Notes under the pieces: model-generated
The model's database searches: none
What the model was told of the DNA's origin: nothing
Seen by the model: the letters and a program-made list of their open reading frames with translations, nothing else
Part shown: piece after piece, positions 5,301-11,344 of the stretch
Position numbering within the stretch: the first letter of the stretch is position 1
Layout: the number at the start of each line of letters is the position of its first letter
Translations under genes and position numbers: made by a program
Origin: Candidatus Uhrbacteria bacterium RIFCSPHIGHO2_12_FULL_60_25
Lineage (GTDB): Bacteria > Patescibacteriota > Patescibacteriia > 2-12-FULL-60-25
Direction: 5' to 3'
Assembly: GCA_001791275.1 (NCBI GenBank)
Contig: MGEH01000037.1
Coordinates: 17,765-60,023 of the forward strand
Length of the DNA stretch: 42,259 bases

Positions 5301-5336
5301 ACCACGGTTGACCCGTGGTCCGATTCGTGTTAACTT
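5301..5336 (+). promoter_or_regulatory. Promoter with inverted repeat over the -35 box
   Basis: TTGACC (5308-5313), a 17-bp spacer and TAACTT (5331-5336) face the gene at 5405. The -35 box is the centre of an inverted repeat, accacgg (5301-5307) and ccgtggt (5313-5319), as expected for a repressor site. The leader would be about 60 nt and ends with GGAGG at 5392-5396. Confidence 0.5.
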
Positions 5337-5404
5337 CTTGCCCTTGTTTGGCGATTTTCATCTCCAAACCGTTCCTTCCCATCACACACCCGGAGGCATG
5401 CCTC

Positions 5405-6655
5405 ATGGAGAGTCTGATTCCGCCGTCCAATCCGCTCCCGTCCGTCGTCGTCGACACGCGCGCCTACCCGAAGGCCATACAGGATTTTCTCGCGCAGAAT
5501 CGCGCCGAGAGCGAACGCTTCGTGAGCGAATCCTACGCGCGCGAACTCTGGCTGAATGACCACGACTTCCGCGTCTCCGCGGACCTGTGCATCGACGGCC
5601 GCGTAAGCGATTTCTCCGAAGCGCTCGGCCTTTCAACCGGACTCCTCGAGATGTACCGATCCGCAGGGTGCCGGTACAACGTGCCAACCTCCTGGATCTA
5701 CAGCCGCCGCATCCGCGACGGGAACCGAAAGCTCCGGGTCATGGACCTGGGGGACTCGTTCGACAAGCGGATGATCGAGATGCGCATGGTGACGGTTCAC
5801 TACTCGGCTTCGAGGCCCAAGGACTCTTCCTGCGCCGCCTGGGAACACCGGACGAGCGAAGCCGTGACCGCCATGCAGGATCTCGCGGACCGGTTCAACG
5901 ACCGGTACTTCCGGGGGAACATGATCGCGTTTGTGGTTCTCGTCGACACGGACCTGGACGCGGTCACGGTAATCGGTCCCGGTGGGCGCCTTTCCACCAA
6001 GGAGTACATCAACATCGGGCCGCGCCGCGCGCTCACGGATATTCTCGCGACCCACCTGCGTCAGATCTTCCCTGCATCCTGGTCGCCGCTCCTGACTCTC
6101 GAAGAGCAATATCGCCGAACATTCCACGAGGAGCTCGCAGAGCACCTCGCGTCGAACGTGGCATTCGTGGAACACGTCCGTGCCACGGACCGGCCTCTCG
6201 AGCTCCTGATCCACCAGGAACGGATGATCTTCGTCGGTCGTCCGCTCGAAACGCGCAATCACAACACGGCGTTTCTGATCGAAGACCGTGAAGACGAAGC
6301 GAACCGCGCCCAGTTCCGGCTCGGGATGCGCTACGTGCTCCAGAACGCGCTCACGGACGCCATCGCGTCCGAAGACCGCGACTGGACGGTGCCGGTCTTC
6401 ATCAGCATCCCGAACGACAAGGACGACCTCGAGCAGACCGTGGACTACGCGCGCGGGATCCGTGCGAACCTCGAAGCGGAGCTGGAGAAGATCAAAGACG
6501 ACCTGGCGGCGACGGTCGGCAGGAAGCTGAACGGATCGCCGGATCGGACGCTGCCGGATTGGGTCATGAAGGACCTGCAGTCCCTCGAACGGCACGTGTC
6601 ATGGTGTACCACCACGAACGACCGCCGCACGCGCCTCTTCGTGCCGTGTGACTAA
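5405..6655 (+). CDS. Putative CsoSCA-type (beta-fold) carbonic anhydrase
   Basis: The 416-residue protein is not obvious at first sight, but its key residues match the carboxysomal carbonic anhydrase CsoSCA, which interconverts CO2 and bicarbonate using one zinc. C62, D64 and R66 form the beta-class C-x-D-x-R motif (LCIDGR). H132 follows 70 residues after C62, and C143 follows eleven residues after the His (HYSASRPKDSSC). As I remember it, Halothiobacillus CsoSCA uses C173, D175/R177, H242 and C253, with spacings of 69 and 11. FVVLVDTDLDAV (176-187) and the later VGRPLETRN region also recall CsoSCA, whose C-terminal half is a second, inactive CA-like domain. The long N-terminal domain of CsoSCA seems to be missing. 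The ATG at 5405 lies eight bases after GGAGG. No carboxysome shell or RuBisCO gene is nearby. This call rests on motif spacing from memory, not on an alignment. Confidence 0.6.
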   Translation: MESLIPPSNPLPSVVVDTRAYPKAIQDFLAQNRAESERFVSESYARELWLNDHDFRVSADLCIDGRVSDFSEALGLSTGLLEMYRSAGCRYNVPTSWIYSRRIRDGNRKLRVMDLGDSFDKRMIEMRMVTVHYSASRPKDSSCAAWEHRTSEAVTAMQDLADRFNDRYFRGNMIAFVVLVDTDLDAVTVIGPGGRLSTKEYINIGPRRALTDILATHLRQIFPASWSPLLTLEEQYRRTFHEELAEHLASNVAFVEHVRATDRPLELLIHQERMIFVGRPLETRNHNTAFLIEDREDEANRAQFRLGMRYVLQNALTDAIASEDRDWTVPVFISIPNDKDDLEQTVDYARGIRANLEAELEKIKDDLAATVGRKLNGSPDRTLPDWVMKDLQSLERHVSWCTTTNDRRTRLFVPCD

Positions 6656-6662
6656 ATCTACA

Positions 6663-6693
6663 AACGCCCATCCCGGCTCTCGGGGTGGGCGTT
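6663..6693 (+). terminator. Strong hairpin after the carbonic-anhydrase-like gene
   Basis: Arms 6663-6675 and 6681-6693 pair over 13 positions, including a wobble pair, around a five-base loop. There is no clear T tract, so it may be a weak terminator or a 3'-end stabilising hairpin. Confidence 0.5.
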
Positions 6694-6723
6694 GTACGTA
6701 TCGACATGCTTGAGCACACTTCC

Positions 6724-6752
6724 TTGCCAGAGACTATCGAAAGGCGCATACT
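6724..6752 (+). promoter_or_regulatory. Promoter of the metal operon, leaderless geometry
   Basis: TTGCCA (6724-6729), 17 bp, CATACT (6747-6752), then only seven bases to the ATG at 6760. Confidence 0.45.
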
Positions 6753-6759
6753 CACCACG

Positions 6760-7119
6760 ATGTATCGAAAAGTCGTCATTACTCTCATTTCTATCGGCGT
6801 CAACCTGACGTCTTTTTGTCCGGCTGCGCTCGCAAAAACTCATCCCATGGACATGGGACGATTTGATCGTGGTATGAGCACGGTCGTACACGTTCACGCG
6901 CCCATGCCAGAGTGCTGCCTGTCACAAGGAGCGCAAATGCAACACGACGTTATTCCAATGACCGTCAGACCTGCCCGACCGGACGTCCTTCCTGCAATCG
7001 TCGTTCCGGGAACCACGCCGACGATACGACCCGGCGATAACACACGTTTGAAGCCCACGCAACGTATCAGGTCTCCTGAACTTAAATTTGAAACACGCAG
7101 CACCGCAAAAAGGGAATAG
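6760..7119 (+). CDS. Secreted Met/His/Cys-rich protein, possible metal binder
   Basis: A 119-residue protein with a typical signal peptide: MYRK, a hydrophobic core (VVITLISIGVNLTSF) and an AxA-like cleavage site (PAALA/KT). The next 45 mature residues are rich in possible copper ligands, including HPMDMG, VHVHAPMPECC and MQHD. The C-terminal half is Pro/Thr/Arg-rich and looks unstructured. No family is recognised. It is the first gene before an HMA-TauE-cupredoxin fusion, a Cu(I) ATPase and a ZIP-like protein, so a role as an extracytoplasmic copper chaperone or buffer is a reasonable inference. The ATG at 6760 is preferred because it begins the signal peptide and lies seven bases after a -10 box. 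An in-frame upstream ATG would put 25 polar residues in front. Confidence 0.6.
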   Translation: MYRKVVITLISIGVNLTSFCPAALAKTHPMDMGRFDRGMSTVVHVHAPMPECCLSQGAQMQHDVIPMTVRPARPDVLPAIVVPGTTPTIRPGDNTRLKPTQRIRSPELKFETRSTAKRE

Positions 7120-7122
7120 GCC

Positions 7123-7151
7123 TTGTGAATGAGGGTCCGTCGGATTACTCT
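7123..7151 (+). promoter_or_regulatory. Putative promoter before the copper fusion gene
   Basis: TTGTGA (7123-7128), 17 bp, TACTCT (7146-7151), and 19 bases to the ATG at 7171. Confidence 0.35.
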
Positions 7152-7170
7152 TATTTACGGTTGATTCCCT

Positions 7171-8538
7171 ATGTCTCGAATTCTTATATGGAACGTGACG
7201 GGCATGACCTGTCACTCATGTGAAAAAGTCATCGGAAATATCTTGAAAGACCTCCCCGGCGTGGAGGAGTTTGAGGTGTCCCTGAAGCAAGGGAGAGCGG
7301 GTGTTCGCATGCGCGATGACGCGAAGAACCCGGACCTTGCAGCCTTGAACTCAAAGCTCGGCGCGCACGGGTATGTACTGACGCCTGAAGGAGGGGAACG
7401 GACGGCCGCGCGGCCTGCCGACTGCCGACTGCCGACAATACATCGGAACCGCTTCAGCACTCGTCTTCGACACGCTCTTGTCGCTCTCTTCGCGGTTGGC
7501 GCCGCGTCGGTCTTCATCCTGGGTCCGCTCCGCAGCCTTGTGCCGAACGTATCAGCCGGTGCATCCATTGGCGCCTTGCTCGTGTTCGGGCTCGTGGCAT
7601 CGGTCTCCTCCTGTCTCGCAACGACCGGTGGATTCCTCCTGGCATATAACGGCAAACCGCGTTCAAATCGACAGCTCCTTGCCGTTCACGCGGGCCGGTT
7701 GGCGGCCTTTCTCGCCGGTGGAGCGTTGCTCGGATTGATTGGACGTAGCATCCCGGGCGTCTCCGAATCGCTCTATGGTGTCCTGGCCCTCGGCCTTGGC
7801 ATCATCTTCCTCGTCATGGGTCTCCACATGCTCGAGCTTTCGCCGTCACTGGCCAAACTCGGCCTGACGCTCCCCAAAAACATGTCGAAACTCGGCGATC
7901 GTATGTCATCTTCCGAAGGACGTGCCGCGCCGTTCCTCGTGGGCGCCGTCACATTCGCGCTGCCATGCGGTTTCACGCAGACGGCACAAGCGTTGGCCCT
8001 CGCGTCCGGATCGCCCATGACCGGTATGCTGCTCATGGGTGCGTTTGCCCTTGGGACGCTTCCGGTCCTCGCAGGACTATCCATCTTCGGGACGGTCAAA
8101 GCGCTCAAGTATCGCGCCGTAAAACTCGCGACCGGCGCCGTCCTCTCGTTCTTCGCCTTTGGCCAGATCGATGGAGGACTGACCGTCCTGGGATCGCCGG
8201 TTACGCCGGGTTCACTTTTCGCGTCTTGGACGTCACAAGCGGCCCAACAAGCGATCCCTGTCGCCAATGCACAGGAACAGCTCGTGCGCATGACCGTTGC
8301 CTATGGAACGTATTCTCCAAGGGTTCTCACGGTGAAGAAGGGCGTGCCCGTGCGCTGGGAAATCGACGGACAGGACGTTGGAGGCTGCGCCAGATCGCTC
8401 GTGGTGCCGAAGTACGGCATCCGTCGGAACCTCACGCCGGGCCTGAACGTCATCCAATTCACTCCAAAGGACGCAGGAACCATTCCCTTCAGCTGCGGGA
8501 TGGGCATGATCCGCGGGTCATTTAACGTCACTGATTAA
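7171..8538 (+). CDS. HMA-TauE/SafE-cupredoxin fusion membrane protein
   Basis: The 455-residue protein joins three parts. Residues 1-75 are a heavy-metal-associated domain with the GMTCHSC copper motif (C14, C17). About 100-355 is a six-helix-type sulfite-exporter/TauE-SafE (UPF/DsbD-like) membrane domain with conserved Pro/Cys helices ([24 protein letters not shown]). About 370-455 is a cupredoxin-like beta domain ([29 protein letters not shown]), presumably extracytoplasmic. This architecture is known from many uncultured bacteria and is usually found with copper ATPases, as here. It probably moves copper or electrons across the membrane. The link between HMA and membrane domain contains an in-frame 7-bp repeat (7415-7436). 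Its stop codon is one base before the CopA start, so the two are translationally coupled. Confidence 0.85.
7415..7436 (+). repeat. Three heptamers ctgccga in the linker
   Basis: Exact units at 7415-7421, 7422-7428 and 7429-7435 encode part of PADCRLPT (about residues 82-89), between the HMA and membrane domains. No inverted arm is seen. Confidence 0.75.
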
Positions 8539-8539
8539 T

Positions 8540-10741
8540 ATGCAGCGGAAGACCATACCGATTCGTGGGATGCATTGCGCATCCTGCGCCGTGACGATTG
8601 AGCGGGCACTAAAGAAAGTCCCGGGAGTAAAAGAAGCGAGTGCGAATTTCGCCCTTGAACGCGCGACCGTCGAGTTCGACGAGACGAAGACGTCCCATGA
8701 CCATCTCGCACAAGCGATCAAAGACAATGGCTACGAACCTGTCATGGACGACCACGAGCACCCCGCGACGCACAAACCCGCTGCTTCGCATCTGACGCAC
8801 ACCGGGTACATCGACAGGAGTGGTCTTGTCCTTGCCTTCATCCTCGTCCTCCCGCTCATCGTGAGCATGGTGATGGAACCCGACATCGGCAGTCTCTTCG
8901 GAAGACCGGCCTGGAATGTGATGAATCTGATCGTCGCATGGGTACTCGTCGCCTGGCTTGGTCGCGGATTCCACAAGGGAACCATCAACGAGTTGCGACA
9001 CCGACGGGCGAACATGGACACGCTCGTCTCCGTTGGGACCGGCGCCGCGCTTCTGTGGAGCACAAACGCATTCTTCTTCGGAGGCGATGGCTACTTCGAA
9101 GTAGCCGGAATCATCATCGTCTTCCTGTTGCTCGGTAAATACCTCGAGGCGTTGCAACGCGGGAAAGCGGGAGCGGCCATCCAGGCGTTGCTCGGCCTTC
9201 ACGCAAAACTCGCTCACATTGTGGGGTCTGACGGGACCGTGACGGACGTGGACCCGAAGGCGCTCAAACCCGGAGACGTCTGTCGCGTGAAACCCGGCGA
9301 ACGCGTGCCTACGGACGGCGCGATTCTGGAAGGCGACACGAGCGTGGATGAATCAATGCTCACCGGAGAACCGATCCCTGTCGAAAAACACAAGGACGAC
9401 CTCGTGTATGGTGCGACAGTGAACGGGACCGGGTCATTCCTCATGAGTGTCACGGTCGAATCGGGCAAGTCGACCTTGGACGCGATCGTTCAGACCGTCG
9501 AACATGCGCTGTCCACGAAATCCCCGGTCGAAAAACTGGTGGACCGCATCTCATCCATCTTTGTTCCGGCCGTGATCGTCGCAGCAATCATCACGCTCAT
9601 CGCATGGGCCGCAATGACAGGGAACGTGGGCGAAGCAATTCGTCATGCGGTCGCGGTCCTAATCGTGGCGTGTCCATGCGCGCTCGGCCTTGCGACCCCG
9701 GCCGCCATCATGGTGGGAGCGGGCGCGGGCGCGAAAAAGGGGATTCTCGTCAAAGACGGTTCTGCGCTCGAGGCTGCGCGTGACATTTCTATGGTGGTCT
9801 TCGACAAGACGGGAACACTCACCGAAGGAAAGCCCACGGTCACGGACGTCGTCGAAAACCGCGCGTCGGGGGTTCTGCCTCTCGAGGTGACGCGTGTGGC
9901 CGCCGCGCTCGAGGCGTCGTCCGAACACCCTCTCGCTCGTGCGGTGTTGACGTATGCGACGGAACAGTCGCCAAAGAAATTCTCACCCGAGACCGTACGA
10001 GAATTCCGCGCCGTTGCGGGGAAAGGGATCTCGGGCTCGTTAGACGGGACGCCCGTCAGCCTCGGGACCGAGGTCTTCATGACCGAACGAGGCGTCGCAA
10101 TTCCACCCGATATCGCCAAGGCAACGGACAAGCTCCGCAGCGATGCAAAAACCGTCATGTACGTTGCGCGCGATGCGACGCTCTTGGGCGTCATCGCGGC
10201 GCAGGACCGGATACGGCCTGACGCCATGGAAGCAATGAAGCGCCTGACGGACTTAGGCGTGGGCGTGGCGCTCCTCACGGGCGACCACAGGGCGACGGCA
10301 CACGCGGTGGCGAAGCAGCTCGTGATCTCGAACGTCTATGCTGACGTGACACCCAACAAGAAAGCAGACATCGTGACGCAGCTCCAGAAGAAAGGAGAAA
10401 AAGTCGCGTTCGTGGGCGATGGCATCAATGACGCGCCGGCGCTCGCACAGGCGAACCTCGGGATCGCGGTCGGGACCGGCTCGGACGTGGCGATCGCCAC
10501 AGGTCAGCTCGTGATCATGGGTGGGTCACCGGTGAAGGCGGCTGACGCCATCAAACTCGCGCGCATGACGTTCCGGGCTGTGAAACAAAATCTCTTCTGG
10601 GCATTCATCTACAACGTCGTCGGCATCCCGCTCGCGGCGTTCGGATTCTTGAATCCGCTTATCGCGAGTTTCGCCATGGCGATGAGCAGCGTCTCGGTTC
10701 TCTCAAACAGTCTGCGAATCGCGAAACGAATGAGGACGTAA
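8540..10741 (+). CDS. copA: Cu(I)-exporting P1B-type ATPase CopA
   Basis: This ATPase pumps cuprous ions out of the cytoplasm. The 733-residue protein has one N-terminal HMA domain (GMHCASC, C13 and C16) followed by a His-rich spacer ([15 protein letters not shown]). It has the usual P1B membrane helices, the TGE actuator motif ([10 protein letters not shown]), the transmembrane CPC metal site (C378-P-C380) and the phosphorylation motif DKTGT (D422). The SEHPLA motif of the nucleotide-binding domain and the hinge GDGINDAP (from 626) follow. All catalytic residues are present. It starts one base after the fusion gene stop and its stop touches the ATG of the ZIP-like gene, so the three form a tight operon. 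The length is normal for a bacterial CopA with one HMA domain. Confidence 0.95.
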
Positions 10742-11344
10742 ATGTATCTCACCAAAGCGCAGAACGCACTGGTCACTTCTCTCGCCGCCGGCATCTTCGT
10801 TGGCGCCGCGCTCTTCGACGTATTCCCGGAAGCGTCGGCACGCCTCGGATCGACGATTGCCATTACCTGGATGGCTGCCGGACTCCTCTTCTGGTGGCTG
10901 CAGAAACACGTTTTGCGCCGGTTTCAGAAACCCGACATGCCTCCGCTCGTCGCCTCTGCGCTCTGGTTCCATTCGATCTTAGAAGGGATCGTGACCGGCC
11001 TCGCGTTCGGCGTATCACAGACGTTCGGCATCCTCGTCTTGGCTGCCATGACGCTGCACCTCCTCCCCGAGTTCTTCGCGGCCGTGGGGCTCATGCGCGG
11101 TGCAGGTTCGAAGACGCGGACGTCGGTCGCGGTCACCATCGCCGGATTCGTGATTCTGTACTTAAGCTTCGGTCTGACATACGTCTTCGTGCCGCAACTC
11201 GACCCGACGACGCTCCCCGCGCTCATTGCGTTGTCCGGTGGCGCGTTTCTCTACGTCGGCTGCGTGAGCTTTTGGCGTCTTCGTGGTGCGCGGACGTTGG
11301 TCGCCTTCATGATCGGTGCAGCGATCGCATTCCTCACCGCGTAA
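10742..11344 (+). CDS. ZIP-family-like metal permease
   Basis: A 200-residue polytopic membrane protein with about six to seven hydrophobic segments. The fourth segment carries LWFHSILEGIVTG and the next TLHLLPEFFAAVG, which correspond to the paired His/Glu metal-binding helices of ZIP transporters (commonly HNxPEG and HExPHE). It is shorter than most ZIPs (about 240-300 residues), and the second motif keeps H, P and E but not the full pattern. ZIPs normally bring Zn, Fe or Mn into the cytoplasm. Within a copper operon it might balance other metals, or have been adapted to another ion. The ATG follows the CopA stop directly and the gene ends just before a terminator. Confidence 0.7.
   Translation: MYLTKAQNALVTSLAAGIFVGAALFDVFPEASARLGSTIAITWMAAGLLFWWLQKHVLRRFQKPDMPPLVASALWFHSILEGIVTGLAFGVSQTFGILVLAAMTLHLLPEFFAAVGLMRGAGSKTRTSVAVTIAGFVILYLSFGLTYVFVPQLDPTTLPALIALSGGAFLYVGCVSFWRLRGARTLVAFMIGAAIAFLTA

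Follow-up and report, generated by a model that had tools for sequence, protein, structure and literature searches.

An intact CDS with an ATG start occupies positions 5405..6655 (+ strand) of the window, by which we mean the whole 42,259-nucleotide stretch of DNA analysed here. It encodes a protein of 416 aa, predicted to be a CsoSCA2-type beta-carbonic anhydrase. A ribosome-binding site read from the sequence, GGAGG (5391..5395, + strand), lies close 5′ of the ATG, preceded by a possible promoter, TTGACC-16 nt-TTAACT (5308..5335, + strand), which has a weak -10 and received no call from the promoter scan. TTGAC-like elements are also found 5′ of most orthologues that we inspected. The first-pass annotation had noted an inverted repeat on the -35 box, and ACCACGG-TTGAC-CCGTGGT is indeed present at 5301..5319, overlapping the -35-like TTGACC. 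However, its role as a promoter palindrome found no support, as the core occurs once in the genome with no second copy, the repeat is missing upstream of all 6 orthologues checked, and its folding was not significantly better than that of shuffled sequences (z -1.3). Because there were neither other copies nor conservation, we dropped the hypothesis that the palindrome at 5301-5319 is an operator.

Upstream of the gene are dnaG, rpoD, a histidine phosphatase gene, msrB, and tRNA-Asn. Downstream, a small secreted ORF comes first. Next are genes for a membrane protein with HMA, DsbD_2, and cupredoxin domains (7171-8538) and for a copper-type P-type ATPase (8540-10741), and then a ZIP-like ORF that scored under the Pfam cut-off (10742-11344). 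Together with the small secreted ORF, these form a copper-type cluster (6685-11344). This gene order would fit a protein that is a component of copper handling, as would the locus L022 from the same genus, where similar ORFs, judged by length and N-terminus alone, lie 3′ of the orthologue. However, a strong hairpin without a T-run (6659..6696, + strand; -27.3 kcal/mol, z -4.9) directly follows the stop codon, and a hairpin of unlike sequence is found at the same position in L022 (-34.8, z -4.3), such that gene and cluster are separated in both species. There is also a promoter-like site downstream of the CsoSCA-like gene, the neighbours in other genera are tgt/uvrD, hydrogenase-like, or ATP synthase genes, and an order common to one genus may reflect ancestry. 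Since the hairpin separates the window gene from the cluster, we judge the copper link very unlikely. The hairpin at 6659..6696 probably ends or separates the transcript ahead of the copper cluster, and the CsoSCA-like gene is likely transcribed alone.

The first pass had seen no RuBisCO or shell gene nearby. The neighbours are free of both, and searches of the window genome (979 kb, 95% complete) with RuBisCO_large (PF00016) and BMC (PF00936) found none, while positive controls matched. Pro_CA was likewise without a match in this 979-kb, 95% complete genome, with its controls matched, and Pro_CA_2 found none in the same genome, with one control matched, under the cut-off. As this carbonic anhydrase search consisted of Pro_CA and Pro_CA_2, with alpha- and gamma-class enzymes outside its scope, the window gene is not established as the only carbonic anhydrase.

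Active site, homology and fold

The zinc ligands of HnCsoSCA are Cys173, His242, and Cys253 (PMC12646314). In the window protein, the codons for C62-x-D64-x-R66 (5588..5602, + strand), the predicted zinc-ligand Cys and Asp-Arg dyad, are in register with HnCsoSCA C173/D175/R177, while the codons from H132 to C143 (5798..5833, + strand), which bound predicted zinc ligands two and three, are in register with H242/C253. C62 and H132 lie 70 residues apart and H132 and C143 lie 11 apart, compared with 69 and 11 in HnCsoSCA. The first-pass annotation had picked out these five residues and their CsoSCA zinc-site spacing; both hold, and the profile match described below keeps the register. Shuffling the window protein 200,000 times, with a C-to-H gap of 60-80 residues allowed, reproduced the pattern in 33 cases. 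Thus, the spacing is beyond chance even without profiles.

Alignment revealed that Cys62, Asp64, His132, and Cys143 are invariant in all 40 patescibacterial relatives, with Arg at position 66 in 36 of them and Lys in the remaining 4. All five active-site residues are also shared by 3 carboxysomal CsoSCAs. T182, N251, H270, and G278 are likewise invariant (40/40 patescibacterial proteins), the last three being in the C-terminal domain. The segment FVVLVDTDLDAV and the later HQERMIFVGRPLETRNHN, which had been said to recall CsoSCA, do align with it, pairing with LLIGVDTDTDAI and HAERYISVGDGFDEVQIRN, respectively.

Pfam CsoSCA_cat (PF20686) matched the window protein at 25.9 bits (cut-off 21.5). 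TIGR02701, the NCBIfam equivalog for carboxysomal CsoSCA, gave 18.5 bits, far under its cut-off of 241. A phmmer search of the PDB with the single window protein returned no match, and a profile was therefore needed. The A1 profile, built from 7 orthologues, matched HnCsoSCA (2fgy/9g4t) with E ~1e-10 across the catalytic and C-terminal domains, with the five residues in register, and Cyanobium CsoSCA with E 1.7e-4, while ordinary beta-carbonic anhydrases reached only 0.6-1. An hhalign comparison to 2 plasmid-encoded carboxysomal CsoSCAs (Thiodictyon and Nitrobacter) gave 96.5% and E 8e-10 over 310 columns. PF08936 (CsoSCA_C) did not match the window protein at E up to 10. It also found nothing in the window's own genome or in 380 genomes of the phylum; as the controls were silent too, these blank genome searches are no proof of absence. 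Plasmids and phages searched with P0001 yielded no match, nor did plasmids searched with a clade B protein.

A structural match to CsoSCA had been set beforehand as a check on the first-pass reading, and the comparison bears that reading out. We built an AlphaFold2 model from 7 sequences, which is of moderate confidence (pLDDT 74, pTM 0.73). In a Foldseek search with this model, CsoSCA entries ranked first (E 5e-15). VIA-align Z scores were 25.5 to 8thm, 24.1 to 9g4t, and 23.4 to 2fgy, with alignments spanning 334-340 residues, although identity between the window protein and CsoSCA is just 14-18%. Among ordinary beta-carbonic anhydrases, the best score was 15.7, to the two-domain 1ddz, and the others scored 7-10. 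The model loops at residues 78-99 and 144-148, near the predicted zinc site, are of low confidence, and the geometry that we propose for C62, H132, and C143 would follow from the sequence register.

These comparisons also bear on whether the protein could be an ordinary beta-carbonic anhydrase. It shares with that class (PF00484; 1DDZ) the overall fold, as the Z scores of 15.7 and 7-10 reflect, and the CxDxR motif. In contrast to the canonical enzymes, the His-Cys gap is 11 rather than 2, Pro_CA (PF00484) does not match the window protein, CsoSCA structures score far higher, and the second site is lost, the C-terminal half having no ligand motif. We consider membership of the canonical class hardly credible. 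The profiles, the fold comparison, and the active-site conservation instead agree on a CsoSCA relative outside a carboxysome context, as first proposed, and homologues of this kind in candidate phyla have already been published. We conclude that the product of the gene is very probably a free-standing zinc beta-carbonic anhydrase of the cytoplasm that belongs to the CsoSCA2 ('non-cso') type.

Domain layout and the RuBP question

The fold, the ligands and their spacing, the Asp-Arg dyad, and a degenerate C-terminal domain are all features of carboxysomal CsoSCA (2FGY, 9G4T, 8THM). Unlike the carboxysomal enzymes, to which it is 14-18% identical, the window protein is without the N-terminal hook or RuBisCO-binding region, its gene is not part of a cso operon, and RuBisCO and shell genes were not found in the genome. 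Only 61 residues precede the first zinc ligand, compared with 172 in HnCsoSCA, and short N-terminal helices (residues 17-52; 5453..5560, + strand; helices 23-41 and 43-52 in the model) replace the carboxysomal N-terminal domain. As that domain is missing, the protein should not bind RuBisCO or shell.

Residues ~246-416 (6140..6652, + strand) form a degenerate beta-CA-like domain with no zinc-ligand motif, identified from the profile, the structure, and conservation. The profile matches the CsoSCA counterpart of this domain, and the structural alignment runs to residue 416. Cysteines occur in the window protein only at positions 62, 89, 143, 401, and 415, and a second CxDxR is absent. With these five Cys and no second motif, no catalytic zinc is expected in the C-terminal half. 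Each chain would thus be a pseudo-dimer, in which the N-terminal catalytic half is predicted to hold one Zn through C62, H132, and C143, with D64-R66 as the putative catalytic dyad for interconversion of CO2 and bicarbonate, while the C-terminal half would be a degenerate copy in which the ligand motif is missing.

The activity of HnCsoSCA without RuBP has been ascribed to the Asp409-Arg196 pair, and the RuBP-regulated cyanobacterial CsoSCA has Lys469 at the position of HnCsoSCA Asp409 (PMC11086599). In the patescibacterial proteins, the Asp409-equivalent position is D in 32 of 40, E in 7 (including E282 of the window protein), and G in 1, and is thus acidic in 39/40. The Arg196 partner was aligned to R85 by HMMER but not by MAFFT. 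Judging from the aligned residues, the acidic side chain at the Asp409 position suggests that the window enzyme is active without RuBP.

Relatives and their neighbourhoods

Counting the window's own, relatives are present in 18 of 57 genomes searched. The A3 profile found the family in 48/381 genomes of the class; PF20686 alone found it in 5/380 genomes of the phylum, a different sample that allows a rough comparison. With PF20686, 14 of 21 A3 members reach E 1e-3.

In our tree, the patescibacterial proteins form four clades, from which carboxysomal CsoSCA stands apart on a long branch. Clade A, which contains the window protein, has 7 rows, so far from the window's own family only, and its named members include Ca. 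Uhrbacteria. Clade C, also from the window's own family, has 5 rows, of which four carry Lys at the dyad position; the other two clades, B with 11 rows and D with 16, are wider. The outgroups were carboxysomal CsoSCA only; the deepest split has weak support (80/43), one row has a branch length of 4, and the root and order of the four clades are tentative. In the proteins of L011, L012, L016, and L017, the dyad Arg is Lys (CMDEK), and all zinc ligands are retained.

In several relatives, the gene sits between tgt and uvrD or next to them. Of about 20 loci inspected, 6 have atpC (ATP synthase epsilon subunit) adjoining or close upstream (L021, L030, L043, L051, L057, and L058). In L025 (clade A) and L051 (clade B), Oxidored_q6 and antiporter genes are directly downstream; these NuoB-like and antiporter subunits 3′ of the CsoSCA-like genes (L025:1586-5159; L051:2661-4073) resemble group-4 hydrogenases or complex I. 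Small Pro_CA_2-like neighbours were also found, scoring above the cut-off in L027 (6349-6768) and below it in L010 (854-1378) and L030 (196-603). As the loci are a convenience set for which no null was computed, the association with atpC and Oxidored_q6 is a lead only, and what it hints at is a function in balancing protons or CO2. In the window genome, Oxidored_q6 (PF01058) was not found, and a hydrogenase link was therefore rejected there.

Known free-standing homologues and the proposed role of the protein

CsoSCA has become known as a carboxysome enzyme, yet relatives occur in cells without carboxysomes. CsoSCA homologues outside carboxysome loci were reported in 2022 from Ca. Falkowbacteria, Magasanikbacteria, Moranbacteria, Pacebacteria, Staskawiczbacteria, and Uhrbacteria (three genomes) (PMC9164163). 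As this list includes Ca. Uhrbacteria, the free-standing kind was already known. In the same study, CsoSCA2 is said to start with two helices that make up a 40-residue N-terminus and to have both domains and every active-site residue, and carboxysomal CsoSCA is suggested to have descended from free-standing relatives. In a second study, the 'non-cso' sequences are pseudo-dimers with a single zinc site, and NAD or [FeNi] hydrogenase genes are frequently found in their vicinity (PMC11086599). Our literature search, which covered few subscription papers, found no further paper on patescibacterial CsoSCA, nor any report on the biochemistry of a free-standing relative. New here are the four patescibacterial clades, the presence of the family in 48/381 genomes of the class, and the recurrent neighbours in other species.

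The window protein resembles CsoSCA2 and the 'non-cso' sequences in being free-standing, with a short two-helix N-terminus, a presumably active and a degenerate domain, all active-site residues, and one predicted zinc site per pseudo-dimer. Unlike CsoSCA2, it belongs to a divergent clade and has no Pfam CsoSCA_C match. Its assignment to CsoSCA2 is by features, and the tree compares it with patescibacterial relatives and carboxysomal CsoSCA.

The role of the enzyme is the part of our interpretation of which we are least certain. Of the usual ligases that consume bicarbonate, the window genome yielded none, with CPSase_L_D2 giving a single match that was weak and partial. That no known bicarbonate-using client was found, together with the low identity to CsoSCA (14-18%) and the change of the dyad Arg to Lys in some clade C relatives, would fit a non-catalytic or repurposed beta-CA fold that binds zinc or another ligand, such as a sensor or structural protein. 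However, the invariance of the ligands and Asp64 in 40/40 proteins across many families, with Arg66 kept, suggests that catalysis has been retained, and we regard a repurposed fold as improbable. The favoured CsoSCA2-type enzyme, probably active without RuBP, could serve general CO2/bicarbonate and proton balance. A small, constitutive enzyme of this type in a reduced genome would make both the non-carboxysomal function and the origin of CsoSCA testable.

More tentatively, Patescibacteria may have a CsoSCA-type family that is ancient and has diversified into four or more clades. In many species it would be linked to membrane energetics, through a neighbouring ATP synthase operon or hydrogenase/complex-I-like module, a context since lost in the window clade. 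Such a history, which we hold possible though doubtful, could inform the origin of carboxysomal CsoSCA. Tandem CsoSCA-like paralogues were also observed: in one genome a clade A gene lies beside a clade B gene, and in another two clade B genes are adjacent (loci L004/L019, G011:C13, and L009/L020, G022:C56).
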